Part shown: one piece after another, positions 13,372 through 36,800 of the stretch | Layout: the number at the start of each line of letters is the position of its first letter | Numbering within the stretch: position 1 is the first letter of the stretch | Virus record (IMG/VR): IMGVR_UViG_3300042937_000479 | Location: 1 to 49,745 of that record | From: a virus | Length of the DNA stretch: 49,745 nucleotides | Strand: one strand, 5' to 3' | Translations under genes and position numbers: made by a program | The notes under the pieces: generated by a model | What the model was told of the DNA's origin: nothing | Database searches by the model: none | The model's input: only the letters and a program-made list of their open reading frames with translations

Positions 13372-13766
13372 TGGCAAAATTAAACATAACAGATATAAGT
13401 AATGATTTTACTAAAAATCCTTCAACCGGGGATATTACTATCGTAAAAGATGGCAATGCTATCAAGCAATCCCTGAAAAACCTGCTATTGCTCAATAAAT
13501 TCGATAAACCATTCAATCCTGACATAGATGTTGGTTTAAGAGAAGTTCTATTTGAGAATTTTCCAGATTTCATTCGAAAGAATATAATTCGTGAAAAAGT
13601 TGAATACATAATCAATAAGTACGAACCGCGAGTTAAATTACAAGAAGTAGATGTTGTTAGTTCGGAAGATCAGAATGGTTTAACAATACAGATAACTTAT
13701 GGAGTAGTAAATCAAGAAAATTTACAATCACAATCTCTGCAAGTTAATCTAGAGAGGAATAGATGA
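13371..13766 (+). CDS. 25: Baseplate wedge protein gp25
   Basis: gp25 is the conserved sheath-initiating wedge component of contractile tails, a homologue of type VI secretion TssE. The 131-aa protein (T4: 132 aa) shows the family order: N-terminal DITIVKDGNAIKQSLKNLLLLNKFDKPFNP (key AIKQSLKNLLL, about 31-41), VGLREVLFENFP, and the conserved EPR motif in NKYEPRVKLQEV (about 83-94). It overlaps both neighbours: the start shares a base with the previous stop, and its TGA overlaps the ATG of gp6 (13763-13766). No SD is evident, so translation is likely coupled to upstream ribosomes. With gp6 and gp7 it forms the core of each wedge. Confidence 0.93.
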   Translation: MAKLNITDISNDFTKNPSTGDITIVKDGNAIKQSLKNLLLLNKFDKPFNPDIDVGLREVLFENFPDFIRKNIIREKVEYIINKYEPRVKLQEVDVVSSEDQNGLTIQITYGVVNQENLQSQSLQVNLERNR

Positions 13767-17579: not shown

Positions 17580-20500
17580 ATGCAAAAAATTAATTCTTTT
17601 GTAACACAGACAAGCACAACAGACAATCTTGGACCTATTATAAAGGATCCGAGCAATGTTTTCAATCAAGTATTGGGTCAATTACCAACCGAACCAGAAA
17701 CAACAACTACAGACGGACTTCCCGGTACAGATATTGTCTATCCACCGAGCACAGATATAGTAGTTCCTGAGCTTCCTACAAATGCATCCTCTCTTAATTA
17801 TGAAGTATGGGCAGCAACATGGAATAGACAAGTTCACGAAGATGCGATTTCTGTTGTACCTTTTGTGTATGTGGATAATATGGGAGAATGGACACCTACT
17901 CCAGGCGATGATTATTTTGTAAATACTACTCAATATAATAATTTCAAAACAGCACTAGAAGCAATACCAGAAGGAAGACGAGTTGTGCAGCCAACATTCT
18001 GGAGTGCTGCTCCTGCAAATTGGACATGGTCTTCGTTAGATATGATTGATTATTATATTGATCGTGATGGCACAGAAATAGGTGGTAGAAAATTAATCTG
18101 GACACCTTGGCAAGAAAATGTAACTGCAGATGCCAAAACAAGTATAATACAATTTTTAACTAGATGCAGTAATGATGGATTAGTAATTGATCATATTTCA
18201 GACAACACATTTTACGGAGATGGGGGTCAGCCAGGAATATGGAATCTTTCGATGCCCCCTCGATACACAACTCATAACATATATGTGTCAGATTCTATTG
18301 GAAATGATGCATGGACTGGAGAAACTTCTGTAGTTTCCGGAACAATAGGCCCTGTGAAAACTATTGCTAAAGCAGCTCTTTTAGCAAAAACTTATACAGC
18401 AGCTGGCGGTGATTCGAATATAGAGATTCGAATTGCTGGTGGTACTTACAGAATGCTTGGAACTGATGCAAATCCTATTCTATACATGAATAGTACATAT
18501 AGCGCAAAGGACGGTAGAACTTTAACATTCAAACCAAAATCTGCATCTGATGAAGTTATAATAACTGGATCGGAAGCAATTCCCCACACAGCATTTACAT
18601 TGGTAAATTCTAGTGATCCTAAGTGGAGTCGTATATCTGCTGCTGCAAAAGGAAATGTATATGTTGCTGATATTGATTCTTTTGATATTGGACCAGGATA
18701 TCCTTCTATGTGGAAAGGTGATGGAGTTGGTTCGCAGGTCGGATATACATCAGATCTACCAGCACTTCCTGATTTGATTTTTAATAATGAAACAATGGTT
18801 GTTGCTAGATGGCCTAATAAAAATAATACAAATAGTAGTGGATTTTCTTTGGCGGAATGTGCTACTATTAAAACTGTAGTTGATACTGGCACAGCTGGCG
18901 TTTGGAGTGTAGATAGAACTTATCTTACTGGAATTGGTGATACTACCCCAGATCCATGTGGAGAATATACTCCAGCTGGCGCAAGAACAACTGATGCAAA
19001 TAATGATGGTATTGCTGATTGTTTTAGAAATGGTGTGTTTACATATTCCTCGGAGTATGATTCTGTTATTTCTACTTGGACATCTGCGGCTATTAATGAT
19101 GGAATTTGGTTGTATGGTTCTTGGAGATGGGACTGGGCACAAGAAAATTATAAAGTAGTATCTCTCGATACTGTCAATAGAAGAATCACAGTCAATTCCA
19201 GAAAATCTAATTATGGAATACAAAATTATACATTATGTGATGCAACAACTGGAATTCTTAATTGTCCAACTAATCCAACTTGTGGTTCGTATTTATCAAA
19301 CCCAACTCCAAGAAGATGGTATGCACTGAATATATTAGAAGAATTAGATTCTCCCGGTGAATATTTTATCGATAGAGATAATGAGAAATTATACTTCTGG
19401 CCAAAATCTGCACTGAATAGTAATTCTAGCATAAGATTGACACACAGAGCTGTAGCCGGTGCTGGTGTTAAATCCAACGATACAACTGAGAATGGATTTG
19501 CTCCTAATGGAACCATTAGTAGAATAGACTTCCCATATCCCGGTTGGGAAGATTCTCCGTTTGGATGGTCAGGAACCGGAAGAGCAATGCAATCCAGACA
19601 TATATGGAATGTTAAAGGAGGATTGCGATCATTATTCAAATTGTATGGTGCTAAAAATATAAGATTCGAAGGACTAACTTTCAGAGATAGTGCTGGATCT
19701 GGTATAGAAATTCAATTATGTGAAAACATTACAGTATTGAAATGCAAAATCTATAATATAAAGAAACATGCAATAAATGCACCCGGTGGTAAAAATGTAA
19801 CGATTGATAGTTGTGATATACATGATATTGGACTGATGGCAATTATTAATACAGGTGGTAATAAACAAACACTAGAGCCAGCTAATAAACTAGTAACTAG
19901 ATGCTCTATTAAAAGATTTGGTAGATTAGTAGATACTTCTGCAGCAATAAGAATAGAGGGAGTTGGCAATACAGTTTCTTACAATTTAATATCAGATGGT
20001 CCTAGTGGTGTTCACGCTTCTCTTGGTAATGATATAATAATAGAATATAATCATTTTCATAAGTTGTGCAAAAATAATGATGATGCTGGTGCGGTATACG
20101 CCGGAAGAAATGCATCTTCGTTTAATATTGTAGTACGAAATAATTTCTTTAATGATATTGGACCTGATCAAGATGGTGGATTTATATATGGTAGTTTTAA
20201 TGGTGGATGTGCTGGTGGAAGCCCTCCAAATACAAGATCAGTAACCGATAACGATAAACGCGTACAGGGTGTTATAGGTGTATATTTTGATGATTTGTTA
20301 TCTGGAAATACGATAAGTCAAAATGTATTTTATAAATGTGGTAGAGGTGACTGGGGTGGCGGAATTGGTTTCAATGGTGGTATTAACCACAAAATAGAAA
20401 ATAATATTTTTGTGGAATGTCCAAGTGGATATGGAGATATTATAAATGCTAAAAAAGTGTGGAACGCATCATTATCCGGACAGGCATTTTATGTAATTAA

Positions 20501-23500
20501 TACAGAGGCTTATCCTTGGTATGAGTCTGGCGGACCATTAGATCGCGATGGAATAACAACTATACCAGTCACAGGATACAGTCCTTGGACTATGCCTTTT
20601 GGTCCTACTGCATATCCAAGTGAAGACTTCAGAGGAGTGATGGCTGTGTCTGATATTCGCGCAGATGAATACAAAAATCGCGCACCTTGGTTACATGAAA
20701 TATACAATTTTTCTAATTCTAATCCAGGAACTCCCGGAACAATTACAGTAAATGTAGACAAAGCAGTATTATATAAAACACAAGCAACAAATAATGTTTT
20801 TGTTAATTGTACTAAAATCTCTCATTCTGGTGTTGTTGGAAGTGATCCTCTAGATCCTTCCGTAATTGGTGGATTTATTGTTAATGGTCAGTTCGAATCT
20901 ACAGATATGACACACTTTGTAAATGTGCCAGCATTTGATTTTAGATTAACCGAAGAAGGTCTGAGACAAATAAAACTAGGGATTCCAGGATTTTCCAATA
21001 TACCTTTCCAATCAATTCCTACTATAAATTATGTTCCAGAATCTTACACACAACAAACTTGGCAAACATGTGCAGTAGGCAACGGTCATTACAGCTGCGA
21101 AAGAGAGTTTTCAGATCCGGATGCATTAGAAGCAATCGTTACAGATCCTAGATTTAATACAACAATTAATACTGTAAATGGAAAAACATTCTATACAGAT
21201 TTTATGGACAGATATAATCTGTGCAAAACAGAAATAGACACAAGACAGAGAAGTTTATTTTCTATATATTCGAATGATTGGTATGTTGCTACTGCCACTA
21301 CAGCCGCACAAGCATTATCACCAATGTATGGATATCTTGGAGATACTCAAAATCCACAAAATAACATGCAAGTTTTTCCTTGGGGAAATTCAAATGCTCA
21401 GGCAGCAACTCGTGCTTGGACTGATACTGTTGTAGATTGGGGTGATGCGTTCTATAGACCAACTATGTGGACACAAGCTCTATCTTCTACTGGATATAAT
21501 AATGTTTCCTTGACACAGGATTATAGCTATCCATTAAATAATGAAGAATTTAAATATTTTGACAATGGATATGGTTGGAAAGGATCACCAAAAATTGCAA
21601 AATCTGATACTAATGTATCTCCTCCATTCTATGGAGAACTTACACCAAATGCATTGGGAACATTTAGCTATATTATAAATCCAACTACAGACGATGAGAG
21701 ATATTTGTTTTCTAGTATAGATCCAAATTCTACACCACCAGCTACAACATTACGATACAGTAGTCCGACTTGGTTGGCTTTCTTATTAGACATGAGACTA
21801 ATGAAAGCAATTCACCGTAGTGATGATACTGCATGGCAAAGATTTGCGCCATGGATTGTGAGTACAGATGTAGGTGGAGAAGTTGATCGTTATCGATATG
21901 GTCCGCTAACAGGTGATGTTGGAAAACAGTATTGGAAAGAAATAATATTACATAGCTGTTTGCATGGTGCTAAATTTATTAATTATTTTAATGGAGTTTC
22001 TCCAGAAAATCCACAAAGCACTTTGGATATGCACAATGTTCTTGAAGAATGGAGAACTACCAGTGGCAATTCTCGTGCTCAACCAACTGCTGTAAACAGA
22101 ATAGCAGTAAATTCTAGTGTTATTATTTCTGGTGGTAGACTTCTAAGTACAAATCAATATTTGTGGAGAATCACAGCCAAACCATCGGCTTCTGTGACAC
22201 TCAGAGCATTCGGATCATCTACATCAAGAACAGATATTCCTCAAACTATAACTCTCGACAGCGCATCTAGAGGTGCGTGGTTAACCACAACTACTTCAGT
22301 TCCGCCAGTCTATATTCTAGATGAAAATACACAACAAGAAACTACTCAATTTACTTATGTTACCTTGATGAGAACACAATTAGAGGGTGGGTTAGTAGCA
22401 AGAGCACATGCCATATATGGTGGATCTACTCACGATTTCGGTTCTGGTGTTGGGTTTGATGCAAATGGTAAATCTGTTGGTGGTTTACAATACATGACTG
22501 ATGCCGGTATAGAAAGTTCTGGACATCATTCTGGAAATGTTAATTGGTATTATAAAAATAATTATAGATTAAATGAGGATGGTAATCTTATACCAGTAAC
22601 AATAGAATATGCACCGGGTTTCGCGCAAGTATTGTGCGACGGAGATCGTTGCTATTCTGGTCAAGGTTGCTACCAAGCACCACCTCTTCATGCTGCAGAA
22701 TGGATAGAACAAATGTCCAAATCTGGAGAATGGGGAGCTCCTTTGCGTCCAGAACAACCATTCCCAAATAGCACTTCATATTATGCATCTGCAAATCAAA
22801 GAAATACATGGTTTCCTTATGTTACTTTAGAGGATGGAGTAACTGTAAGAATTCATCAACCATTTGATAATACCAAGGGAAGAGACACTCCTATGGAGTT
22901 TATGGTTTCTGGTAACTTGGATACGACTACTAATATGTACAGTAGTTTCTGGCAAAGAAGCAGATCTCAAGGAGGACGCAGCGACCTTGCATATGACTAT
23001 AGAATAAATGTAGATACTTCTGATTATAGTTCAGTTTCTACTGGATGGTCAAATGTAGTATTCTATACACTTGCAGATGGTACATTAAAATGGCAAACAG
23101 CTTCGTCTACTTATGCTGGATATCCAATATTACCACCGAACAATCTCGCAGTTCTAAAATACAAACAAATAGCTGTTGGATATGGTAGTGTTATTGGGCT
23201 TAAAACAGATGGTACAGTTGTTGGGTGGGGTGGAGTTGATGGAGAAGTTGAAAGAAGTACTGCATTTTTCCAACAACAAGTAACTTTCAAGGGAAGAACT
23301 ATCAAAAAAGTTGCGGCGGGTGCAGGACATTACATAGCACTTCTTGACGATGGACAAGCAGTAACTTGGGGTAGTAATGAATCTGCTCAATGCAGCGATC
23401 CAGATACTGTATGGACACCAATTGGTCTTATTCCTATTCCAACTGCAACAAATAAAGAATACATTACAAATCACATACCATATCAAGATTTCTTTTATGA

Positions 23501-26351
23501 TCAAAAGAAATCATCAATGATGTATACTTTTGATGGCAGTAATGATAGTCAGCCACTATTCAATAGTTGTGTGCCTGCACCTGAAAATAGACATTATAGA
23601 ATATTTAGAAATAATTTATTAGGCTGTCCGTTTCATTCAAATAATGAATATACTCCAGCAAATCCACAGGGTGCATATGATACTCCGTATGTAATAACCG
23701 GAGAAACATATCCAATACAACAAGGCGGAAATTTTGCTTGGAGTGGTAAAATAAATTGGGCAAATCAAACGGGAGCACCAAACGATTATCAATTTAGCAG
23801 AGATACAACACAAGAAAACACAGGAGTGAATTCTTCTGTTGGTAGTTTGGGGTGGATGCGAGCCGAAGAGAATATTCCAATGGTACAAGCATCTGGAGGA
23901 ACTGAAATTGGTTATCAAAATTCTGCAGCTAACGGCGGAACACTAGTATACAATTCTGTTTTTGGTACATCAGCAAAGAAATATGTTGATATTGCAGCTG
24001 GAAGAGCCCATAGTCTATTATTAACGGAAACTGGTAACATAGAAACATGGGGTCAAAATTGGTATTACACAATCACCGGAAGTGGTGAAGCTCCTGAAGA
24101 TCCAGATACTGGAGAAAATCTGGGATGGGGTCGTGTTGGTCAACCAAGTGGAAATGGAAAACCACCAGCCATACCACATGGTTATGGTACATATCGTAAT
24201 GTTAGATTCTTTAAAAGAAATAACAATTCTGTAAAGGCAATTGCAACAGGATATTATACTAGTCAAATTATTAGACAGTCGGACGGTTCTATTTTTGCAT
24301 GGGATAGAAATGAATGGGGAGAATCGCGTCCATATCTAAATTCGGAAGGAAATGAGGGATTGCCAAATGGACCATTTAAACAAGTAAATGGTGGATATCA
24401 TCATACATGTGCCCTCAGAGAAAACGGAACAGTTGTATGTTGGGGAGAAAATACCGAGGGAGAATGTAATGTTCCAACAGATCTTGGCCAATGTCTCTGG
24501 ATAGATGCGGGTGCAAGATTTACACTAGCACTAAAACGCAACGGAGAATTGTGGGCATGGGGAAAGGTTTCAGTACTTAAAGCTGGAGCAACAGATGGTA
24601 TTGCTATTAAATTAGTAAATGATACCATAATAATACCAAACCCTTCAATCGGATTGCTTCCCGGACACGAATATCCAATGATCGTTTCTGGTGCAAAAGA
24701 AATTCGTACAGCCAGTGATGGTTTACCAACAAAATACGAACCGGGTAATATGTGGAAATATGGTGGATTTATATTTGCTCCTATACGCGCAGATGATGGA
24801 TGTGCAGATGCACTTTTCATGTCCACATACACAAAGGTGCTTCAGTCTTCAAAAGCTAGCGAAGAATATGCATATTTTTCAATGCATTTAGATCCGGATA
24901 AAATACCACCTTGCATAACTCAAGGAGACGCCTGGAAAACTTGGTCAGAGGATGATTTTGTTAATGGTGAGTATAGACCAAAGCGTGTGTTTGTGAATTA
25001 TGAAGATCAATTAGTAGATCAAATTCGTGGATTAGATATGACTGCTAGATTTGGACCAGGTCAATATGGTGGTATGGGTGGTGTGCTGGTGAATGCTAAG
25101 ATATGGCAGAAAGTAGTTTCATATGTAAAACTCACCAGAAAAATGAATAACAAAATTCGTGAAGTATGGGGATCTCAAGCAAACATAAATCATTATGATA
25201 TGATGAGTTTCCCTTATTATCAAAATTGGAAATCGGAATGGTATCCTACTGCTGGACCTCTGATGTGGGGTGAATTAGATTTGTTAGAAAATACTGCAGA
25301 TAATCAATCGAGAGTTTCTACTTGTCCATATTGTGGTGAATTGGATATAGATTATCCTGGCGATGCTGTGTTTAATCAATTATCTTTTGAAGAAAAAAGA
25401 GAATTCAACATAAAGGCATTGAAAGCAGTACAAAACAAGGTATTCGCCTTGGCTGCAGCAATAGCAAAAATGTGCTTATTTGAACCGGCTGAAGGTGAAC
25501 CAGATGTTTTAGATTTAAGACCAGAAATGACTGTTCTTATGCCTCAAATAGATCCAAGTAATTTCATTATAACTGGATTGAATCATTATGCAAATTCTGT
25601 ACACGGAGATCTTGTAAATAATGCACATAAATACTATGCAGCAACATCAGACGGGTTTACTGTTGGTGGTGAAACCTTAATGAATAATTCTGAAACAAAT
25701 AAAAGCAGACAGATGAGTGTACATCATAAAGAACAAGCAAGAGTGGGGTTATTCAATAATCAATCATCTGGTAAATTATATTCATTCATGGTTCAAGGAG
25801 TGTGTGGATCTCAAGTATCACCACATTCTTACGAATTCTATAATTCAAGTGATCCTGCTAATGCTGGATATAAAAAATCATTTAATTATCCATGTAACCC
25901 AGAATTATCTACATGTCTTCGTCCTACATTCAATGGTATAGAAGTTAGTTCGTTTCCAATATCAGCATCTGTTGCAAATCATCAGGCAGGGGATCGCAAA
26001 TATGTTGTTCCTACTTTTCCAGAAAACACCAACAGAAAGAGTTTTTTAAGACATTCCGTGTGGGTAAATCTATGGAATGATTTCCTTGTTAGAAGCCAAT
26101 TAGGTTCTGCTTTAAAGAATAAAGATGAAATTATTTGGTCTGACAATAATTTACAAAGTGTAGTTAGTTCATATTTCCCAATGGAAGTTTCTGCACCACC
26201 GGGATATAACGATCAATTGAGACCTTGTGCCCAGGGAGAAACCCCACATGCCGGTTGCAGAGACATAGTTGCAAATCCGTACATTCTACCAACTCCAATG
26301 AATGACAGTTCGCGTATAAGGAACAATTCATTTTCAACATTTAACTGTTAG
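17580..26351 (+). CDS. Giant multidomain tail protein with beta-helix and RCC1-like repeats
   Basis: A 2923-aa protein, the largest in the window. Segments: 1-75 Thr/Pro-rich linker; about 75-230 a possible TIM-barrel-like part (YEVWAATWNRQVHED); about 233-1145 a right-handed parallel beta-helix, starting HNIYVSDSIGNDAWTG and GPVKTIAKAALLA, with ladder repeats such as NVTIDSCDIHDIG and IIIEYNHFHKLC, ending DFRLTEEGLRQIKLG, as in pectate-lyase-like tailspikes; about 1190-1560 another enzyme-like region (LHSCLHGAKFINYFNG); about 1860-2335 at least six RCC1-like propeller repeats (IAVGYGSVIGLKTDGTVVGWG and similar); 2335-2923 a C-terminal region with a CxxC (Cys2582, Cys2585). It probably forms a tailspike or fibre that binds or digests surface sugars. 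It lies inside the baseplate operon between gp7 and gp8, with no SD. Confidence 0.7.
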   Translation: MQKINSFVTQTSTTDNLGPIIKDPSNVFNQVLGQLPTEPETTTTDGLPGTDIVYPPSTDIVVPELPTNASSLNYEVWAATWNRQVHEDAISVVPFVYVDNMGEWTPTPGDDYFVNTTQYNNFKTALEAIPEGRRVVQPTFWSAAPANWTWSSLDMIDYYIDRDGTEIGGRKLIWTPWQENVTADAKTSIIQFLTRCSNDGLVIDHISDNTFYGDGGQPGIWNLSMPPRYTTHNIYVSDSIGNDAWTGETSVVSGTIGPVKTIAKAALLAKTYTAAGGDSNIEIRIAGGTYRMLGTDANPILYMNSTYSAKDGRTLTFKPKSASDEVIITGSEAIPHTAFTLVNSSDPKWSRISAAAKGNVYVADIDSFDIGPGYPSMWKGDGVGSQVGYTSDLPALPDLIFNNETMVVARWPNKNNTNSSGFSLAECATIKTVVDTGTAGVWSVDRTYLTGIGDTTPDPCGEYTPAGARTTDANNDGIADCFRNGVFTYSSEYDSVISTWTSAAINDGIWLYGSWRWDWAQENYKVVSLDTVNRRITVNSRKSNYGIQNYTLCDATTGILNCPTNPTCGSYLSNPTPRRWYALNILEELDSPGEYFIDRDNEKLYFWPKSALNSNSSIRLTHRAVAGAGVKSNDTTENGFAPNGTISRIDFPYPGWEDSPFGWSGTGRAMQSRHIWNVKGGLRSLFKLYGAKNIRFEGLTFRDSAGSGIEIQLCENITVLKCKIYNIKKHAINAPGGKNVTIDSCDIHDIGLMAIINTGGNKQTLEPANKLVTRCSIKRFGRLVDTSAAIRIEGVGNTVSYNLISDGPSGVHASLGNDIIIEYNHFHKLCKNNDDAGAVYAGRNASSFNIVVRNNFFNDIGPDQDGGFIYGSFNGGCAGGSPPNTRSVTDNDKRVQGVIGVYFDDLLSGNTISQNVFYKCGRGDWGGGIGFNGGINHKIENNIFVECPSGYGDIINAKKVWNASLSGQAFYVINTEAYPWYESGGPLDRDGITTIPVTGYSPWTMPFGPTAYPSEDFRGVMAVSDIRADEYKNRAPWLHEIYNFSNSNPGTPGTITVNVDKAVLYKTQATNNVFVNCTKISHSGVVGSDPLDPSVIGGFIVNGQFESTDMTHFVNVPAFDFRLTEEGLRQIKLGIPGFSNIPFQSIPTINYVPESYTQQTWQTCAVGNGHYSCEREFSDPDALEAIVTDPRFNTTINTVNGKTFYTDFMDRYNLCKTEIDTRQRSLFSIYSNDWYVATATTAAQALSPMYGYLGDTQNPQNNMQVFPWGNSNAQAATRAWTDTVVDWGDAFYRPTMWTQALSSTGYNNVSLTQDYSYPLNNEEFKYFDNGYGWKGSPKIAKSDTNVSPPFYGELTPNALGTFSYIINPTTDDERYLFSSIDPNSTPPATTLRYSSPTWLAFLLDMRLMKAIHRSDDTAWQRFAPWIVSTDVGGEVDRYRYGPLTGDVGKQYWKEIILHSCLHGAKFINYFNGVSPENPQSTLDMHNVLEEWRTTSGNSRAQPTAVNRIAVNSSVIISGGRLLSTNQYLWRITAKPSASVTLRAFGSSTSRTDIPQTITLDSASRGAWLTTTTSVPPVYILDENTQQETTQFTYVTLMRTQLEGGLVARAHAIYGGSTHDFGSGVGFDANGKSVGGLQYMTDAGIESSGHHSGNVNWYYKNNYRLNEDGNLIPVTIEYAPGFAQVLCDGDRCYSGQGCYQAPPLHAAEWIEQMSKSGEWGAPLRPEQPFPNSTSYYASANQRNTWFPYVTLEDGVTVRIHQPFDNTKGRDTPMEFMVSGNLDTTTNMYSSFWQRSRSQGGRSDLAYDYRINVDTSDYSSVSTGWSNVVFYTLADGTLKWQTASSTYAGYPILPPNNLAVLKYKQIAVGYGSVIGLKTDGTVVGWGGVDGEVERSTAFFQQQVTFKGRTIKKVAAGAGHYIALLDDGQAVTWGSNESAQCSDPDTVWTPIGLIPIPTATNKEYITNHIPYQDFFYDQKKSSMMYTFDGSNDSQPLFNSCVPAPENRHYRIFRNNLLGCPFHSNNEYTPANPQGAYDTPYVITGETYPIQQGGNFAWSGKINWANQTGAPNDYQFSRDTTQENTGVNSSVGSLGWMRAEENIPMVQASGGTEIGYQNSAANGGTLVYNSVFGTSAKKYVDIAAGRAHSLLLTETGNIETWGQNWYYTITGSGEAPEDPDTGENLGWGRVGQPSGNGKPPAIPHGYGTYRNVRFFKRNNNSVKAIATGYYTSQIIRQSDGSIFAWDRNEWGESRPYLNSEGNEGLPNGPFKQVNGGYHHTCALRENGTVVCWGENTEGECNVPTDLGQCLWIDAGARFTLALKRNGELWAWGKVSVLKAGATDGIAIKLVNDTIIIPNPSIGLLPGHEYPMIVSGAKEIRTASDGLPTKYEPGNMWKYGGFIFAPIRADDGCADALFMSTYTKVLQSSKASEEYAYFSMHLDPDKIPPCITQGDAWKTWSEDDFVNGEYRPKRVFVNYEDQLVDQIRGLDMTARFGPGQYGGMGGVLVNAKIWQKVVSYVKLTRKMNNKIREVWGSQANINHYDMMSFPYYQNWKSEWYPTAGPLMWGELDLLENTADNQSRVSTCPYCGELDIDYPGDAVFNQLSFEEKREFNIKALKAVQNKVFALAAAIAKMCLFEPAEGEPDVLDLRPEMTVLMPQIDPSNFIITGLNHYANSVHGDLVNNAHKYYAATSDGFTVGGETLMNNSETNKSRQMSVHHKEQARVGLFNNQSSGKLYSFMVQGVCGSQVSPHSYEFYNSSDPANAGYKKSFNYPCNPELSTCLRPTFNGIEVSSFPISASVANHQAGDRKYVVPTFPENTNRKSFLRHSVWVNLWNDFLVRSQLGSALKNKDEIIWSDNNLQSVVSSYFPMEVSAPPGYNDQLRPCAQGETPHAGCRDIVANPYILPTPMNDSSRIRNNSFSTFNC

Positions 26352-26360
26352 TATTAAACA

Positions 26361-29300
26361 ATGGCAATACTTAAAAATTATAATCCCGTAATCCATGATG
26401 TCTATACTTTTGATCCGCCTGCACAATTTGTATTACCATTGACTGATGGAATTCCACAGAGTAGTATAGAGGGAATACCAAGAGGATATAGTGAAACCTG
26501 TCTAGCAATACTGGCTGGTGTAGATTTTTCTGGTATTGGTATACGATATAGATCCTTTAAACAAAGAGGAGTTTATCAAAATCAAAGCGGCATTACAATA
26601 CCAATAGATCCGACTAATATAAATTTTTATAATACAAATAGCGGAGCTGTCGTATTAATTTCTCCTAGACATGTATTAGCATGTGCTCATTACTTTCAAT
26701 TCGACGGTCTACAAAATTTTATAGGCAGACAGTTTGGATTTTTAGGAAAATCTGGACAAATGTACTTTAAAACAGTTACAAAAGTATATTGGGATCAAGC
26801 GACACTAGGAACAGGTGCTGATGTACCGGGTGATCAGTTGTTATTTGAATTTGGTCGCGACTTGCCGAATGGAGGCACACAGGATGCATTTGATGGTAAT
26901 GATGTAAAAATTTATGACAAATTTGCAGATTGGTCTAAATTTGAGGATAAAGAAACTTTATGGGTTTTTGAAAATCAAGGAAGATCGTACAGGATATTTA
27001 ATACTTTAAATTTTAGTCCGAGCCCTGCTGTATCAACAACTCCACATCCAGACGATCTTGGTGCCTATCCTGATGGTGAAGTCCCAGTCCACGGGGGGGA
27101 TAGTGGATCTCCAATATTTAAAATTACAGATGGTGGTGAACTTGTATATGCTGGTATGAAAAATGGGGCTCGGTTGGGTTGGAGTGCTGATGATATTGCT
27201 AGTTATATTAGTCCAATATTGAACCCTTTTGGATATTCTGTGTCTCTTTCAACTAGTGAGCTAAATCCATGTGTTGGGTATTGTTATTATGATTCTATAA
27301 TCCCGGCCGGATCTCATGGTGGTGCTGGAATACATACCCTCTTAAATGCTAGAAGACACATTTATGGAATTGCTGTAGAGTATGCATCATATGATGATAT
27401 GGTTGCTGTGCCATATGAAGATTATGGAAACGATTCCTATTGGATTGGATATCATGGTCAAAATGGAAGATTCGATCCATTCATCACAACACCGCCAGCA
27501 ACTATAGAAGAAGCACAAGCATTAGATAGTTCTGGTTGGCCACATAGAAGATTCTCAGAAACTTCTAAGCGTGTTCAAGGATTGATGTATATATTAGCTG
27601 CAAGAAAAGATGCTAGTTTGGCAAAATATGTGAAAAATCCTGAACAAACTCATATCAGAGATTGGCCACAACCAGCAGCAAATTTCAATGTAGATAGAAG
27701 ACCGGTATCGACAATACCAGATTCTGTGTCGGGAGGAAATGCTGCAGCAAAGTATCTTAATTTTGTTAATGGTGAGATTGTCTTTACTAAAAATACTGGA
27801 ATTGCTAAACTCATACAAGATAATCTTGATTGGAATTATAACAGAGGAGTTCGTAGATTTATGCTATGGCTTCCATGTGGATTTTTGTCAGCCGATGGTG
27901 GATTTTATACATCTGCAGTATCATCTGCAATGAAAAACAGAGTATATACTGGAGGTATAATAAATCCGGCAGAATCTTGCTGGTCAGGAATAACAGTAAA
28001 AGATCCTGCAACTCAGTTATTCATACCACAGAGTGTAGAACAAGCAAATACTGCTACTTTTAATCCAAATGGTAGATTGAATGAATGGTTGACGCAATTT
28101 GGTGCATGGATTGCCTCCCATTCAGATGCAGATGTTGGAATTTATATAGGTTATGCAATTCCAACAGTAGATGGAGTTCCTAATGCAAGTACTCATATTG
28201 CAATGATTGATCAAGCCGGTATTAGTAGTGTGGGGCAAAATGTTGCTACTGGAAGAGGTTGGCAAATTCCAGATCCTGCAAATAACGCAGCACATGCAGC
28301 ATTCTTAACTAACGAATTACAGCCATGGATTGATATTGGAATAACTTCTATTGGATTGGATGCAGGAGAGGGAGCGTTTAATTATGCAAATGGAGGCACA
28401 ATGTCATATGGTGCTACTGCTGCGTCTAAAGCTCCCGTTGGTGACTACAGAAAATGGCTGATGGAAAAATGGCCATCACTAAAAACTGTGATAGGAGAAG
28501 CACTTCCAAGAGATCCTAAAGCACCGATCTTGAATGAATTTAATCAAATAGTGAATACTACTTTTCCTAGAAAAACAGTGTATTTAACGGATACTTCTAC
28601 TGAAGTTTGTAAAGCTATTCCTGTTCCGGGCGGTGCTGCACTAGATAGCATAAATCCAATATACACAGATAATTGCTGGGCAAATAAAGGAAGAGAAAGG
28701 TATCGTAAACTAGATCCGTTGGGTAAAGACTATAGAACACCAACAGATCCAAATGGACTGGTTTATAGTGCAGGAGCATATCAATATTGTCCTTATGTAA
28801 TTCTTCAGAGTGGATATTTAAATTCTGGTGAATGGAATATTGGAAAACACAACCTAGACAATATTGGCAATTTTGCAGGACTAGATCCTAATAATATGTG
28901 GTGTTGGTACCGAAGAAATACTGAGATAGGTGTTTATGTCGAAAACTATTATTTGTTAAGTCCGACTTTGCGTTCTTTGTATAGACGGTTTTTTCCAAAT
29001 GATACTAACTATAGTAATATATGGCAATTAACACCAGCATGGCACGATCAAGGTATTGCACAGCCTACTCCCGCCATCACAACACCACAACTGTTGGGAC
29101 CATATGATGGCCGACAATATATAAGAGATTCTGCTTTCTATAATAAGATTAGAAATGAAATTTTCGTAAATATCAAAAATTTCATAGAGCGAGGATATGT
29201 TTTCTGGACAGCTGTAAATAAGATAAATTTACAATTAGTAAAAGATGTACATGCCGATGTTCTTGAATACATTACTGGTTTTGAAGTGATTGATACGCTA

Positions 29301-29453
29301 GATCCACTGGATGTTATTATAGAAAATAGATCATTACCTGTCTATGAAATAGAGTTGAAATCTACTACATTCAGAGCAACAAAACCAATTAAAGATGCCA
29401 CAATAACACAAATATTACTAGATACTTCTGTAAATACAGATCAAAGTACATAA
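26361..29453 (+). CDS. Tail protein with trypsin-like serine protease domain and putative TIM-barrel domain
   Basis: A 1030-aa protein. Residues about 90-285 look like a chymotrypsin/trypsin-fold protease with a full candidate triad: His110 in VLISPRHVLACAH, Asp158 in PGDQLLFEFGRDLP, and Ser248 in VHGGDSGSPIF, with an oxyanion-hole glycine in the GDSG motif. Residues about 440-750 look like an alpha/beta barrel (RRFMLWLPCGFLSADGG, DVGIYIGYAIPTVDG, ITSIGLDAGEG, LKTVIGEALPRD), perhaps glycosidase-related. The C-terminal 100 residues probably anchor it in the baseplate. No signal peptide is present. It sits between the giant protein and gp8, so it is probably a virion component that trims host surface proteins or processes neighbouring tail proteins. 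Both domain calls rest on motifs read by eye; the protease call is the firmer one. Confidence 0.65.
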   Translation: MAILKNYNPVIHDVYTFDPPAQFVLPLTDGIPQSSIEGIPRGYSETCLAILAGVDFSGIGIRYRSFKQRGVYQNQSGITIPIDPTNINFYNTNSGAVVLISPRHVLACAHYFQFDGLQNFIGRQFGFLGKSGQMYFKTVTKVYWDQATLGTGADVPGDQLLFEFGRDLPNGGTQDAFDGNDVKIYDKFADWSKFEDKETLWVFENQGRSYRIFNTLNFSPSPAVSTTPHPDDLGAYPDGEVPVHGGDSGSPIFKITDGGELVYAGMKNGARLGWSADDIASYISPILNPFGYSVSLSTSELNPCVGYCYYDSIIPAGSHGGAGIHTLLNARRHIYGIAVEYASYDDMVAVPYEDYGNDSYWIGYHGQNGRFDPFITTPPATIEEAQALDSSGWPHRRFSETSKRVQGLMYILAARKDASLAKYVKNPEQTHIRDWPQPAANFNVDRRPVSTIPDSVSGGNAAAKYLNFVNGEIVFTKNTGIAKLIQDNLDWNYNRGVRRFMLWLPCGFLSADGGFYTSAVSSAMKNRVYTGGIINPAESCWSGITVKDPATQLFIPQSVEQANTATFNPNGRLNEWLTQFGAWIASHSDADVGIYIGYAIPTVDGVPNASTHIAMIDQAGISSVGQNVATGRGWQIPDPANNAAHAAFLTNELQPWIDIGITSIGLDAGEGAFNYANGGTMSYGATAASKAPVGDYRKWLMEKWPSLKTVIGEALPRDPKAPILNEFNQIVNTTFPRKTVYLTDTSTEVCKAIPVPGGAALDSINPIYTDNCWANKGRERYRKLDPLGKDYRTPTDPNGLVYSAGAYQYCPYVILQSGYLNSGEWNIGKHNLDNIGNFAGLDPNNMWCWYRRNTEIGVYVENYYLLSPTLRSLYRRFFPNDTNYSNIWQLTPAWHDQGIAQPTPAITTPQLLGPYDGRQYIRDSAFYNKIRNEIFVNIKNFIERGYVFWTAVNKINLQLVKDVHADVLEYITGFEVIDTLDPLDVIIENRSLPVYEIELKSTTFRATKPIKDATITQILLDTSVNTDQST

Positions 29454-29463
29454 GAGGACTCAA

Positions 29464-31878
29464 ATGGCAACATTTAGACAAAGAGGAAGAGAAAATACAG
29501 CAAAAGTTTTGTTGAATGACTTTAATGCATCAAAAGATCATTCGTACTTCCTTGCTATTGGCAATGCAGTTACGAGTCCCGTTGCAACTACATCGCCTAC
29601 ACTAGACACCATTCAAGCAGATTATACTACATTTGATAATATGTTTTTTATGAATCAAATTCTAAGATCTGATGTTTCTTTGATGATTAAAAATATACCG
29701 TGGCAAGCAAATCAAGTTTATGTTGCTTTTGACAAAGATAAAAATCAATATGAGTCGGGTGATTTGTTTTATGCGTATAATTCAGATAATCGATCTGTTT
29801 ATCTGTGCTTGGCCAGTCCATCAAACACCTCTGCGACAAGTACATATCCTCCTAGTTCTTTGAGCACAGAACCAGAAATAAAATTAGATGGATATACTTG
29901 GAAATTTTTATATCAAGTCTCAGAAGAAGATTTAGAAAAATTTGATTATCCTAATTTTATTCCTATTCAAGAAATTGGAACAGATTTGTATACAGATCAA
30001 AGACTATATCAACAGAATGTTGCATCAGCAGCAATTAGAGGAGCAATAGAAGCAATTGATGTTTCTGTTCAAGGAAACGCATATGCCGGTGCAGTAAATG
30101 TCAATTTTACCAATTCTTTATATTTTATAGCATCACAAAATACAGATACTGCAGAATTTCCTATAATAACAATAGATCCTAGCGGAAGACTAGAATTAGC
30201 ACTAGCTGATGGATTTTACGATAATAAATATGTTATTTACTTCAAAAATAAATACACCGCAACAATACAGACATCAGTTATTGATTCAACAACTGGATAT
30301 TTGCAATTAACTTTATGTAATCCAAGTTCTGCTGCATCACCACCACAAGGTGTAGAATTTTCTATATTACCAAGAATAGAAATTATTGGAAATGGATCTT
30401 CAGCTATTGCAATTCCAGTAATGACAGAAGATAAACTAATATCAAAAATAACAATGATTGATGGTGGTTCTAATTATAGTTATGTTGATGTGTCTGTTTT
30501 AGTGGAAAATGGAACAGTAATTAAACCAGTGATTGGTCTGAATGGATTAGCATCAGATGTGATTGAAGTTCTTGGTGCAAGACACCTAATGATTTCTAAG
30601 AAAATAAAACCATTATCGTCTTTGAGCGAGAGTGATCCGGTTGTGTATTCTGCCCCAGAAAATACAGGAATTGTATACGATGGAGCCGAATATTTGAATA
30701 TAATTTCTCCAAACACATATTATACACAAATATCGTTAGTAAAGAGTCCCAAAAAATTCATAAATGGTTTAGAAGAGATTGCTGGAACAACTGTGATTGA
30801 AGTAAAGGAAATGATAATAGAAGCAATTGATCCTACAGTTACTATAACAATAGGAACAACAACCACACCTTATACAAATAATGGGAATTTCTTTGAAATT
30901 AATGATGTTATTACTAGAGGACCTAACAACTATCCCGATCAGTTCCGAGCAATAATAACAAATGTAACAAGTACCGGTTTTTCTACTGCTCTTACTTGTT
31001 CTTTAGTGAATGGTGCATTCGAAACATATTCTGGTTATAGAATCAAAAATCTAAAAAATACAACAGAAACTGGAGATGACGAAGAATTTATTTTCCAAGA
31101 CTGTGATAATAATTGTTCTAACAGTATAGAAGTCGTATATGAAAATACATACAACTCTTCTGACTTTATTTTGGATAGTTCTTTGAATGGTGGCACCAGC
31201 TTTGCAACTGCTCAGATTGTACCCCCACCAACTGGTTATGGATTCGTACACCCACACTATCCTACCAAAGCAACCATAAAGGTAAAAAATGTAACTTCCG
31301 GATTCTTGACAGCAAGATATGAAGATGGTGAATATATTCCTGGTGAAGTCGTTACTGCATTCCGTGTGACAGGAAGTGTTGCCTCTGTTGGTAAGAGAGG
31401 CACACTGGTTTCAGTCAGTGAAACTATTCAAACAATTGGAGATGATAGTACCGTAGGATATTCTTACATACTTGAATGTGCTATTGATAGAGGTGCTGGA
31501 CAAATAAACACACCAGAACAACTAGTAGCAGATGGCATTTCTTTAGATACCAACATTCTTATACGACAAGGAACACAAGGAACTGTTGGAAAATTAATAA
31601 GAACTGCTATTCCTGGCGGAACTAGCAATACTGATATTGTGTATTTGTATGTAAACAACTACAATGGGGTATTTACAGTAAGTGGTGATAATTTATACAT
31701 TATAAATGATTTGTATAATCCAACCACATATACAAATATGAAATTGACAGTACAAAGTATAATCTACCAACCAACTGTGGTTAGATATTCTGGTAATTTG
31801 TTATATATAAATGATGCCGGTCCTATACAAAGACGGATAGAAAATACAGAAAATCTAAAACTCCTAATCGAGTCTTGA
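29464..31878 (+). CDS. 8: Baseplate wedge protein gp8-like, with long C-terminal extension
   Basis: gp8 is a wedge component that dimerises and contacts gp10, gp7 and gp6. The N-terminal about 190 residues match: RQRGRENTAKVLLNDFNASK, YFLAIGNAV, the region VSLMIKNIPWQANQVYVAFD, and the family hallmark DGYTWKFLYQVSEEDLEKFDY (key GYTWKFLYQVSEED, about 139-152), comparable to T4 gp8 DGYVWEYLFEIP, then PIQEIGTD. The whole protein is 804 aa, whereas T4 gp8 is 334 aa. The extra 500 residues are beta-rich (ATIKVKNVTSGFLTARYEDGEYIPGE) with repeated small domains, and may carry or replace outer wedge proteins such as gp9 and gp10, which I could not find in this window. A strong SD (AGAGGA, 29453-29458) precedes the ATG. 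Confidence 0.75.
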   Translation: MATFRQRGRENTAKVLLNDFNASKDHSYFLAIGNAVTSPVATTSPTLDTIQADYTTFDNMFFMNQILRSDVSLMIKNIPWQANQVYVAFDKDKNQYESGDLFYAYNSDNRSVYLCLASPSNTSATSTYPPSSLSTEPEIKLDGYTWKFLYQVSEEDLEKFDYPNFIPIQEIGTDLYTDQRLYQQNVASAAIRGAIEAIDVSVQGNAYAGAVNVNFTNSLYFIASQNTDTAEFPIITIDPSGRLELALADGFYDNKYVIYFKNKYTATIQTSVIDSTTGYLQLTLCNPSSAASPPQGVEFSILPRIEIIGNGSSAIAIPVMTEDKLISKITMIDGGSNYSYVDVSVLVENGTVIKPVIGLNGLASDVIEVLGARHLMISKKIKPLSSLSESDPVVYSAPENTGIVYDGAEYLNIISPNTYYTQISLVKSPKKFINGLEEIAGTTVIEVKEMIIEAIDPTVTITIGTTTTPYTNNGNFFEINDVITRGPNNYPDQFRAIITNVTSTGFSTALTCSLVNGAFETYSGYRIKNLKNTTETGDDEEFIFQDCDNNCSNSIEVVYENTYNSSDFILDSSLNGGTSFATAQIVPPPTGYGFVHPHYPTKATIKVKNVTSGFLTARYEDGEYIPGEVVTAFRVTGSVASVGKRGTLVSVSETIQTIGDDSTVGYSYILECAIDRGAGQINTPEQLVADGISLDTNILIRQGTQGTVGKLIRTAIPGGTSNTDIVYLYVNNYNGVFTVSGDNLYIINDLYNPTTYTNMKLTVQSIIYQPTVVRYSGNLLYINDAGPIQRRIENTENLKLLIES

Positions 31879-31885
31879 GGAAAAA

Positions 31886-33859
31886 ATGACATTTAAGAAT
31901 CCAGAATTTAGTAGTAGCTCACCTTACTTTGACGACTTTGATGATGCAAAGAATTTTCTAAAAATTCTTTTCAAGCCAGGATATGCCGTTCAAGCTAGAG
32001 AATTGACACAACTACAAACAATTCTACAATCACAGCTTGCTAAATTTGCTGATAGTATTTTTCAAGACGGTAGTCAAGTTTTTGGGGGAAAGATACAGAT
32101 TGTAAGTAATCCGTATGCTCGTGTAGAGAAATATACACATAGCGCATCTGGAGTTAGCACAAACTCTGCTGACACTTATCTGAATACATTACCTTCTAAT
32201 CTTCTTAAAGTATTCAGCAAATCTGGTTCTATATTTACAGAATTGGCTACTATCAAGATATCGTATTTTGAACCATCTAATTATTCAGTAAACGATGATT
32301 ATCCTGTTGCCTTTTATAATACAGTTTCGGTTGCACCAGAACAAGCAGGAACTTTTGATATACAACGATCTCACTATATTGGATTGAGTTCGTCTGGTCC
32401 GTTTCTGAAAGTTATAAATCCAGCAGAACAAGCTGGCACACCAACCCAGTATACAATAGCTCCATATGGAGAGGGATATCTGGTAACAGTTGATGATGGT
32501 ATCTTCTATATTGATGGCTATTTTGTAAAATCTACAAAACAAACAGTTGCTCTGTTCAAGAAATCTGCAGAAGATGAATCAGAAATAACAGTTGATACTG
32601 GATTAGATTATAATTTTGCCAATAAAGGTGTTCGATTGTTTGCAAAACCATCACATAGAATTGGTTATACTGTAAACAGAGAAACTATAACAGCTACTCA
32701 AGATTCTACTCTGAAAGATCCCGCAAGAGGATTCTATAACTACAATGCTCCCGGTGGAGATCGTTATAGTATCAATTTTACATTAAAAGCAATTGAATAT
32801 GACAATTCTTCTGTTGATATTGAGAATTATGTAAATACAGATTTCATACAACTTCTGAGAACAACACGCGGAGTTGTGGATTATATTAAAGATAAATCCT
32901 CATATTCACAAATTTTAGATTTGTTTGCACGAAGAACACAAGACGAGTCTGGTTCTTATACCGTGGTTCCCTTTATTGCAGATGTAAAAAATCATTTAAG
33001 AAACGATAAATATGTTTTAACCATAGCTGATGCATCTGTTCCTGAAGTTTTTGCTAGTAATGTAGGACAGGCAGCAAATGTATTAGTAAGTGTTGGTGGA
33101 TATATATGGCCAGCAACTCAATCAAATTTTAATCCATTCTCTGCAACTAATTTAAATGATTCTGCTTTTGCTGTTGCAAAAGTTGTTGATATTGTTGTAG
33201 ATCATAATGAAGAAACTGGACAAAATACAGCAAAGCTGGTAGTAGAATTACAAAATAATAAAAAATTATCATCTATCGGTACTTCGTATTATTTTAAACA
33301 ATCAGCAGGTTCTACAAATAAATTATTATTAGTTTCTTCTGTGGAAGTTTTAATTGATCCAAAGGGAGCATATTCAAGACTGGATGTTCCTGTAGGAAGT
33401 TCTGATAAATTAGCAATCACATTGCAATCAGGAAAAGCATATGTGTTTGGTTATGAATACGAAACATTTGCACCAAGAGTAGTTGAATATGTAAATAGTG
33501 GTAATCAAACAAGTATAAAACCTCTGAGTGGATTGAATGTTGACTTTGAATTGGGTAATTATGTCTATGGTTCTTTTGCACAAAGAAATGCAAATCAATC
33601 AATTGATGTGGATTTTGAGAAATTGCCATTATTAGATTTAATCGATGTCAACACAAATACTATTTTATTATACCCCACGACTGGCGGTCAGCAAAAATCA
33701 AAAATATTGGCATGGGCTCCGTTTAAAAATAATGAAGAATTTAAATTAGTAAATGAAGCAAACATAATTGATATTAACAAACTTACTGAAGCGGATGTGG
33801 ATGCACTCTTTCCCCATGAGAGTGTTTTATTTGTAGAAGAAATTAGTTCTCCTGCTTAA
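31886..33859 (+). CDS. DUF4815-type tail structural protein, N-terminal part
   Basis: A 657-aa virion protein of the DUF4815 type found in T4-like cyanophages and relatives. The diagnostic N-terminus is SSPYFDDFDDAKNFLKILFKPGYAVQARELTQLQTILQSQL (key FKPGYAVQARELTQLQTIL, about 32-50), followed by FADSIFQDGSQVFGGKIQIV. Later parts are beta-rich (GEGYLVTVDDGIFYIDGYFV, LQSGKAYVFGYEYETFAPRVVEYV), again typical. In many relatives this domain and the region now in the next gene form one long polypeptide; here a stop at 33859 and a 33-base gap with a separate start divide them. GAGG at 31877-31880 overlaps the previous stop and serves as SD. It is likely a fibre-attachment or baseplate-peripheral protein. 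Confidence 0.65.
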   Translation: MTFKNPEFSSSSPYFDDFDDAKNFLKILFKPGYAVQARELTQLQTILQSQLAKFADSIFQDGSQVFGGKIQIVSNPYARVEKYTHSASGVSTNSADTYLNTLPSNLLKVFSKSGSIFTELATIKISYFEPSNYSVNDDYPVAFYNTVSVAPEQAGTFDIQRSHYIGLSSSGPFLKVINPAEQAGTPTQYTIAPYGEGYLVTVDDGIFYIDGYFVKSTKQTVALFKKSAEDESEITVDTGLDYNFANKGVRLFAKPSHRIGYTVNRETITATQDSTLKDPARGFYNYNAPGGDRYSINFTLKAIEYDNSSVDIENYVNTDFIQLLRTTRGVVDYIKDKSSYSQILDLFARRTQDESGSYTVVPFIADVKNHLRNDKYVLTIADASVPEVFASNVGQAANVLVSVGGYIWPATQSNFNPFSATNLNDSAFAVAKVVDIVVDHNEETGQNTAKLVVELQNNKKLSSIGTSYYFKQSAGSTNKLLLVSSVEVLIDPKGAYSRLDVPVGSSDKLAITLQSGKAYVFGYEYETFAPRVVEYVNSGNQTSIKPLSGLNVDFELGNYVYGSFAQRNANQSIDVDFEKLPLLDLIDVNTNTILLYPTTGGQQKSKILAWAPFKNNEEFKLVNEANIIDINKLTEADVDALFPHESVLFVEEISSPA

Positions 33860-33892
33860 TGAGAGATATATAAAATAAAGGCAAAGCTATAA

Positions 33893-36800
33893 ATGACCAC
33901 TTCCAATACGAACAACCAATTTAAAAACGATTTAGCATCAAATTTGATGGTAGTATCTGGTGAGACAACATCTACCACATATACTGCTAGTAATTTTTCA
34001 GACAAAATAGTCGATGTTATTAAAATAGTATTCAATGATAATTGGCGTGGAAATTTCAGAACTGGATATGATCCGATAAATCGTACTGATGGACATTTAG
34101 GATTTCGCGAAGATATATTCAGTGCTAATTATGAAATCTCTAAGAATTTTAGAGTCAAACAAATAGATGGAGCAACTGGAAATGTTATTGCAGAAGGCAC
34201 TGCACTGCGTTGGGTTCCCGGATCTAAAGAAACTGGTGGAGGAACTCTATTCATTAAAGAACTGTTTCATGAGAGCGGTGCTCCATCAAACTTTAATGTA
34301 AATAATGGTGTTATATTTTGTAACGAAATCAGTCCGTTTACTTCAGGTAAAACATATCCAGCAAACCCAATGTGGGCAGGATCTGCAGTTAGTAGTATTC
34401 AAACTGCGTCAAATGTATATAAACTAACAACAGACCAAGCATATAATGTAGTTTCTAAACTTGTTTGTACAAATACTTCTGGTACAGAAGGAACTGCAAT
34501 AGGTTCTGGTGAATTTGAATATGGACAAAGAGTCGTATTAAAGTCCTCAGAAGATAATATATGCAACAGCAATATTATTAATAAAGGAACTGTGTTGGCG
34601 AGTACAATCGATACTGTATCTCAAAGACTTTCCATATTCGTTCAATTTGATGCTCCATTGAACGATGCTATAAATCAAAATGGCAATTGTACCACATGTG
34701 ATACATTTCTCTGTATTGGTGATTCTAATAATTCTTGCAAAAGTTCTTGCTGCTTATATGGAATAATTAATACTAAAAAAATAAGTACACCAGAATGTGG
34801 CACTGTACAGAAGATTGTATTTGCCGATGAGGGTGGATCTAATTTTATTGCCGGACAAGAAGTATATCAGTGGAAATGGGAAGCAGCTGGAAAACATGAA
34901 GGAAATGGAACCACGGGTAGGGGTTCTGACACAGAATATAAAATAACTGGTACATATTTAAATTGGGACAGTCAAACTAAAGTATTAATTGTTCTTGCTC
35001 CTAGTAAATTATTTGAAATAAAATATGGAAATATATATCAAAAAGATCAAAATAATGCTTTAATTTCTAGAGGATCTGCTATTTCTATTGATAAAAGTAA
35101 TTTTATTCGTAAGAATGGTTCTTTCATTAATATAAAAAACACAGCATCCGCATCAACATATAAAACTAGTTCAGAATTCTATCAAGGTTGGCCAACTACA
35201 GAAACAGGAACTTCTAATGGGGAGTATCTTGTACAAACAACAGAAACCAACGAAACTTCGTATAATCCGGATTATGAATACACAGTCGGAGAAACTGTAA
35301 TACAAGCACTAACGGAAGATGCAAATAGTACTGTTATAAATCAATATGCTGCGGGTAAGGTTGTTTCTTGGGAACCAAATCTTACGGCGCTGTCTACAAT
35401 ACCGTCTAGATTGGTAATCAAACGATACGAATTTGGCACAGATGATCCTAAATTGTTTGACACTAATAATACATTAGTACCAAAAACAAAAAGACTTGCC
35501 AGATTCCGTATTGGTACCATTGCAACTGAAGGTGGAGATGGTAGTACTACTCTTTCTATTCTGAACAGAAGTCAAAGAAATATTCTACCAATCAGACAAT
35601 TTAACAATATTATTCCTGATACGGAAGTGTTTGATTGGTATAATTTTTCATCAGATGCTGTAATACAAGAAAGCACAGCAGCTGATCAGACAGATCCAGA
35701 GCTCGACGGCGTTGGAACGATAGTAAAAGGATCATCTATTGGAAATACACGCATCAAGGCAATACAAGAAGATTCTGCAAATTATAAAATACATTTAATG
35801 GATTCTGATATGAAATATGATGCTATTTCATTCAGTAATGTTTCTCAGATTGGTATAGCAGGTACAGAAGCAGTAGGTAGTATAAACTATACAAAGATAT
35901 TCCCTGTATTAAATGTCGCGCAAACTATTGTTGATGGTATGTCTATAACCACCTTATATGAACCATTTACGGATAAAATGATATTACCTTTACCGGGTGG
36001 TCTTGTTATGGAAAATGTTACGGGTGGTGTTTCTAATTTTGGTGGAACTGAATTAACTATTCAGAAAATTTATAATATAGATTTCAGTGTTGGAGGAACT
36101 TCAATAGACACACTTGAAGTTCCGATTGGAGATAATATCTCATCTGCAGAATTTGCTAGCAGCTTCTCTTCTTCATACTCATTTGGTGCAGATTCTGGTG
36201 GCCACCCTATAAAATTAATAAAATACACCGGATTACAGGGAGATGGAGATGCAAAACCAGCAGATCACCGTTCTGTATATTACGATCTTTTGCAAGATTC
36301 CGCAACCTCTCCTAGAAATAGAATAATAGTTCGTAGAAAAACTCCGGATGGGGAGGGGGGAATTACGAAAATGATATTGGGCGCAGAGGTAAAATGCGTT
36401 GCATCTAGTGTCACAAAAACAAAAACAAAAGAACAATTCACCGAAACTATTCTTTTGAAGTATCAGACTTCTGGAGAGTTTAAAGGTAAATGGGTAGCAG
36501 AAACTTCAAAGTATGATATTGATTCTTTGATATCTGTATTCTTCCTTGGTGTTGGTGGAGTCTTACCGTTAAGTGCCAATCATAAAAGCGTATTCGGTAT
36601 CTCCAATCAAACTGACGATTATTCTTATAACAAATCACTGCTCGTATTGGGTGCTGATGGATTGCAAGAAAATAAAAATACAGATCCATTACAAGGACCA
36701 ATTGTTCCTTTTGTTCCTATCTCAGCAGTTTATACACAGACTGGCTTGAACGCAACAGATTTTTCTGTATATATTTCGGTTACTGGTATTGCAAACTCTA

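Follow-up and report, generated by a model that had tools for sequence, protein, structure and literature searches.

A serine-protease triad in a baseplate operon

Does the long open reading frame (ORF) at positions 26361-29453 (+) of this virus encode a serine protease that is built into a phage tail, and if so, what could such an enzyme cut? The window analyzed here is the whole stretch of DNA, a virus record of 49,745 bases. The ORF was confirmed as 1030 uninterrupted codons, and its product is hereafter named P0001. The original prediction had pointed to an ordered, trypsin-like set of residues in this protein, and all three motifs were found as described: His110 in LACAHY (codon 26688-26690, +), Asp158 in GDQLLFEF (codon 26832-26834, +) and Ser248 in GGDSGSPIF (codon 27102-27104, +). 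Among the 175 stop-to-stop frames of at least 60 amino acids in the window, only P0001 carries the pattern GDSG[GSTA]P, and the trypsin-type His motif is likewise restricted to it. From its sequence, P0001 appears to combine a protease domain with the C-terminal portion of a giant tail protein that is split here.

The predicted location in a baseplate operon was borne out by PHROG matches. On the plus strand upstream of P0001, we found a gp25-like baseplate wedge gene (13371-13766; phrog_261, E 4.7e-35), a gp6-like baseplate wedge gene (13763-15652; phrog_219, E 2.9e-150), a baseplate wedge gene at the gp7-type position (15649-17577; phrog_26741, of unknown function, and phrog_17744, baseplate wedge) and a gene encoding a giant tail protein of 2923 amino acids (17580-26351). 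A gp8-like baseplate wedge gene follows downstream on the same strand (29464-31878; phrog_438, E 6e-43). Tube cap, wedge, hub and lysozyme parts precede gp25 on the plus strand, two phrog_358 proteins and the neck and sheath genes come after gp8, and the minus strand carries hub, tube, end protector and head closure genes, making up a T4-like structural region. P0001 resembles T4 gp7 in being encoded between gp6 and gp8 and in its length, T4 gp7 having about 1030 amino acids as well. Unlike gp7 and the other wedge proteins, however, it has no PHROG wedge match, and the gp7-type matches fall on the ORF at 15649-17577.

P0001 and its relatives in sequence databases

Searches of P0001 against Pfam, NCBIfam and PADLOC returned no family at cut-off, and the curated Pfam scores of peptidase families S1 (Trypsin/Trypsin_2) and S6 were not reached. 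Below the cut-offs, Trypsin_2 scored 15.0 bits with the domain of L001, an IMG/VR contig (cut-off 27.6), and 17.7 bits with that of relative L084, while Peptidase_S6 scored 20.7 bits with relative L086 (cut-off 23.3). A profile search listed trypsin at E 0.04, behind the unrelated YTM1 at E 0.017. A second one gave Hbp protease at E 0.014, trypsin at 0.19 and factor XII at 0.24, with non-protease matches from 0.62, and the profile aligns Ser248 with the GDSG of trypsins and S6 proteases. Taken alone, the matches to trypsins lack significance (E 0.04 and above); those to trypsins and S6 proteases together are weak, but repeated.

All relatives of P0001 come from uncultivated viral contigs, representing dozens of such viruses. 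The full-length relative L001:10001-13108 is 82% identical. By tblastn against 50,697 phage records, P0001 had no match at E 0.01, the N-terminal domain matched only two SSV4 records at the chance level (E 7), and the members from L031, L037, L012, L086 and L084 had no match in the same records. When compared with plasmids, the L012 member gave one weak match, at 230-325, mostly in its dockerin part. Two strict-pattern scans of genome contigs for bacterial relatives confirmed none of 108 and none of 3 stretches, respectively.

Alignment-based scans of viral contigs gave relatives 33-36% identical over amino acids 1-295 or slightly less, and then 44 loci, many of which lay on already-found contigs and some of which were near-identical. 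From these, 27 representatives were aligned, same-contig repeats and near-copies being left out by eye. The extra upstream residues that the L062 and L085 starts showed in the first alignment were trimmed for the alignment used to count invariant columns; L082 is 5'-truncated. Identity to the window domain falls to 24% in this set, with 15 invariant columns that include His110, Asp158 and Ser248, each conserved in all 27 members. The scan patterns contained His104 and left out His110 and Asp158. The Ser248 motif sat in one of the two patterns of the 44-locus scan, so the conservation of this residue is partly a product of selection, which does not apply to the 33-36%-identity relatives from the earlier scans. 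The conserved order His-Asp-Ser of these putative catalytic residues is that of clan PA serine peptidases.

Chymotrypsin folds are sometimes reused without catalysis, and the domain could accordingly be a structural or binding module with a protease-like fold. In line with this reading, a neighbour of one family member carries GDIGSP and, going by a weak HMM match, may be a degenerated copy. Against it stand the triad and the GDSG(S)P loop, invariant or nearly so across 27 diverged members, and we regard a non-catalytic role as very unlikely.

Predicted fold of the N-terminal domain

The proposed comparison of a predicted structure with trypsin folds gave a chymotrypsin-type match. The AF2 model of amino acids 1-310 was computed from 15 of the family members then known and is moderately confident (mean pLDDT 57.9, pTM 0.64, with 131 of 310 residues below 50). 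Ten-residue means of pLDDT reach 53-87 over residues 91-210 and 71-89 over 251-300, and are poor in the first 50 residues and over 211-240. The order of the elements suits a chymotrypsin fold: a strand and a short helix are found at His110, Asp158 lies directly ahead of a strand, Ser248 is in a loop ahead of two strands, and a C-terminal helix spans 276-290. Foldseek against the PDB retrieved neutrophil elastase, thrombin, urokinase and similar chains (best E 3.3e-5, probability 1.00), with 185 chains at E ≤0.001 and TM-scores of only 0.3-0.5. In VIA-align, pro-Esp gave Z 13.2 (3.6 Å over 175 residues), V8 and thrombin about 13, and all 1000 chains compared reached Z of at least 5. A viral structure library yielded 11 matches at E ≤0.001; several are nameless, and the others include a trypsin-like peptidase of an archaeal virus, a Peptidase S1 protein of a granulosis virus and polyproteins or replicases of RNA viruses. 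The model points, with moderate confidence, to a clan PA double beta-barrel (chymotrypsin) fold in the N-terminal 300 residues of P0001, the VIA-align range being about 54-296 (26520-27248, +).

P0001 shares with the S1 and S6 families of clan PA (trypsin, V8/Esp, SPATE) the predicted fold, the His-Asp-Ser order and the GDSG(S/G)P loop, and it resembles the SPATE proteases in GDSGSP and the strand that follows. It differs from them in scoring below the family cut-offs, in a MAILKNYNPxxHD segment of its own, and in having phage tail sequence in place of autotransporter parts: no Pfam autotransporter match was obtained for an S6 passenger or translocator, and the rest of P0001 is tail-protein sequence. 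The family-specific segment (amino acids 1-53; 26361-26519, +) starts with MAILKNYNPxxHDxY and has low pLDDT in the model. It lies outside the protease fold and holds a nearly invariant MAxLxxYNPxxHD motif, with Asp13 conserved in 27 and His12 in 26 of the 27 members. Common to all members, this segment could be an anchor or a propeptide.

The "barrel-like domain" proposed to follow the protease was not confirmed. For the C-terminal half, AF2 had three sequences to work from and returned a pLDDT of 29.8, the model was left out of the fold search, and family searches as well as PDB profile searches of this half gave no match. The region is better described, from sequence comparison, as the C-terminal 740 amino acids of a giant tail protein, which a relative encodes as one uninterrupted chain.

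The protease domain lies at the split of a giant tail protein

This relative is L033, in which a homolog of the window giant (amino acids 257-2923 of the giant aligned with 3-2641 of the L033 ORF, 44% identity) is continuous with a homolog of P0001 amino acids 290-1030 (27228-29450, +; 56.5% identity to L033 amino acids 2639-3381). The fused frame extends over 3986 codons from stop to stop in the whole record. No protease domain is present in the fused chain, nor did the family profile detect one in the rest of the L033 and L034 records, which are fragments of 77 kb and 43 kb. As L033 and L034 are identical over the stretch compared, the fused form is documented in a single lineage. In the window, the giant and P0001 are in the same frame and are separated by two stops at the split point TGT TAG TAT TAA ACA ATG (26346-26363, +), a sequence shared with L001 and lacking a Shine-Dalgarno-like element. 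We read the protease, which sits exactly at the split of the giant, as a plug-in module.

Two routes could lead to this arrangement, and two lineages do not decide between them: either a free-standing protease gene, bringing its own start codon, entered at this point and became joined in frame to the rest, or loss of the domain gave the fused form. Free-standing relatives with a MAILKNYNP-type start are common, and we therefore favour insertion over loss as the probable direction.

The 2923-aa giant itself contains RCC1_2 repeats (Pfam, E 1.8e-35), a right-handed Beta_helix at 688-857 (E 8.6e-12) and a weak match to a GH141 insertion domain, and a partial related giant is found in L045. Further downstream, two adjacent ORFs at 31886-39736 match successive parts of phrog_358 (positions 9-322 and 783-1603), so that the window may contain another large tail protein that is split.

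Our preferred explanation, to which we give a probability of roughly 60%, is that P0001 is a clan PA serine protease joined to a tail protein, most likely located at the baseplate periphery and cutting host-surface or extracellular proteins. In this view, a protease gene that brought along its start codon would have become joined in frame, at one exact position, to the C-terminal portion of the giant; the giant would now be made as two chains, the second having the protease at its N-terminus. The tail-protein half of P0001 would anchor it in the baseplate periphery, where the displayed protease would be the first part to meet the host surface and would cut proteins there during adsorption. The position in the virion, the proteolytic activity and the substrate are what we infer from the gene and its surroundings.

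Relatives of the protease domain and their genomic contexts

Most relatives are proteins of 320-360 amino acids with a C-terminal dockerin. Pfam Dockerin_1 exceeded the cut-off in L003, L046, L054 and L080 and was just under it in L082. L084 and L085 are longer (about 580-590 amino acids) and end in an ASELNEIQE-type motif recognized by eye, L084 being without a family match. A very divergent protease is encoded in a second T4-like baseplate operon, that of L086, together with gp25 (phrog_261, E 6.1e-33), gp6 (phrog_219, E 2.7e-84), a wedge protein (phrog_17744) and a phrog_358-like protein. Structural or packaging genes were found next to the family member in 5 of the 8 contigs with scanned neighbours. 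L062 adjoins portal, major head and tube genes, L082 is near single-strand-binding, hub and tube genes, L008 adjoins terminase and tail protein genes, and L079 is near a terminase gene. The three neighbours scanned in L013 are non-structural, and the two scanned in L054 and the one in L031 gave no family match. The family tree has long branches and does not decide on a single origin of the baseplate cases.

That most of the other phages carry the domain with a dockerin or another tail counts against the preferred explanation, as does the limited share of scanned contigs (5 of 8) with structural or packaging neighbours. The dockerin tails also bear on the idea of an intracellular effector, which would act on or counter host proteins after infection, its place in a tail operon being incidental. 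Several of the dockerin-tailed proteins are encoded away from tail operons (L005, L013), and the MAILKNYNP start has no obvious signal peptide by eye, as would suit such an effector. The window protease, however, is covalently linked to tail-protein sequence that continues the chain of the giant in a relative, and it is encoded in a tail operon; moreover, the ASELNEIQE-type motif of L084 and L085 resembles, by eye, motifs in tail genes of the window and of L086. An effector role is in our view quite unlikely.

Cohesin-like related proteins are encoded on three dockerin-protease contigs (3 of the 15 searched): L091 (G013:57951-59048), L092 (G008:7061-8287) and L094 (G005:46160-47290). Pfam Cohesin exceeded the cut-off in G013 only, and the cohesin-like gene lies about 0.5 kb from the protease gene in G005 and about 4 kb in G013. 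It would be unusual for a phage to encode a cohesin-dockerin pair. A prepilin-like protein (FTIVELLVVVSIIALLIAILLPAIGKARDAA) adjoins a dockerin-protease, and a PEP-CTERM-like tail is found in another contig (L013:8296-9438; L092:244-993); we take both to recall planctomycete or verrucomicrobial hosts. Next to the L031 family member, an 813-aa protein (L031:11500-13938, -) contains a weak protease-like stretch (LITRKHALVLNS); it was not retained as a degenerate paralog, the HMM match being too weak.

Evolutionary tempo and the choice of substrate

Between the window and L001, identity is 50-64% at P0001 amino acids 151-300 and mostly 82-96% in the C-terminal part, with a minimum of 74% at 901-950. 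Pairwise NG86 estimates for this single genome pair gave a dN/dS of 0.59 (0.168/0.284) for P0001 amino acids 1-300, against 0.26 for amino acids 311-1030, 0.28 for the giant and 0.10 for gp8. The protease region is therefore the fastest of the parts tested, with the triad still fixed. A host-facing specificity domain would be expected to evolve in this way, but relaxed constraint or recombination could have the same effect.

The original prediction had offered two substrates, host surface proteins trimmed at adsorption and neighbouring giant tail proteins. The second would make P0001 a maturation protease of the assembling tail, comparable to gp21 in T4 heads. P0001 does lie between giant tail genes, joined to part of one, and most structural proteases of jumbo phages are assumed to act in maturation, according to a review (PMC7824862). 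The L033/L034 lineage, on the other hand, has a homologous giant, its C-terminal part and gp8 with no detectable protease in its fragmentary records, which argues against an essential role in assembly. In the window, the giant and P0001 are already separate genes, and fast evolution is ill-suited to a conserved self-substrate. We consider maturation unlikely. The trimming of host-surface proteins is favoured over the cleavage of tail proteins, because of this protease-free lineage and also because the protease region evolves fast with its catalytic residues fixed.

Comparison with known phage proteases

The T4 gp21-type prohead protease has a herpes-protease-like fold and acts in head maturation; it differs from P0001 in fold and in operon. 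The two are alike in being phage-encoded serine proteases, as PMC7824862 describes for the gp21 type. That jumbo-phage review covers prohead, ClpP, metallo- and NlpC/P60 peptidases, and the word "trypsin" does not occur in its main text. Within the part of PMC5967307 consulted, only a dockerin-related carbohydrate-binding module is mentioned. A search of the openly licensed PMC literature found no title or abstract on a baseplate trypsin-fold protease. The nearest case is gp102 of Sinorhizobium phage phiM9 (record KP881232), which PMC10783043 presents as a trypsin-like protein in a phage of the T4 superfamily. Like P0001, it is a trypsin-like protein from a T4-like phage. Unlike P0001, it is a free-standing protein of 230 amino acids, encoded on the opposite strand after gp23 and outside the baseplate operon, with a GMSGGG loop. 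It was rejected as an ortholog, with -2.3 bits against the P0001 family HMM with all filters off. The fold and the chemistry are known, and phiM9 gp102 is a precedent of another type.

A broader reading, which we put forward as doubtful, is that the family forms a transferable virion protease cassette. In T4-like phages, a phage-specific trypsin-fold clade would be plugged into giant baseplate proteins; in large phages carrying planctomycete-like genes, dockerins would tether it to phage-encoded cohesin-like proteins. Its task as a host-range module would be to strip or open a proteinaceous host surface ahead of DNA injection.

Enzymes that act on sugars and peptidoglycan are a familiar part of phage tails. 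If a trypsin-fold protease is indeed built into the tail, protein cutting would join the tools of phage entry, and the hosts indicated would be bacteria whose surfaces are rich in protein or S-layer-like. The giant, split in one case and fused in the other, provides a natural before-and-after pair, which makes the role of the module testable. On this evidence, some phages may arrive at the host surface equipped to cut proteins.
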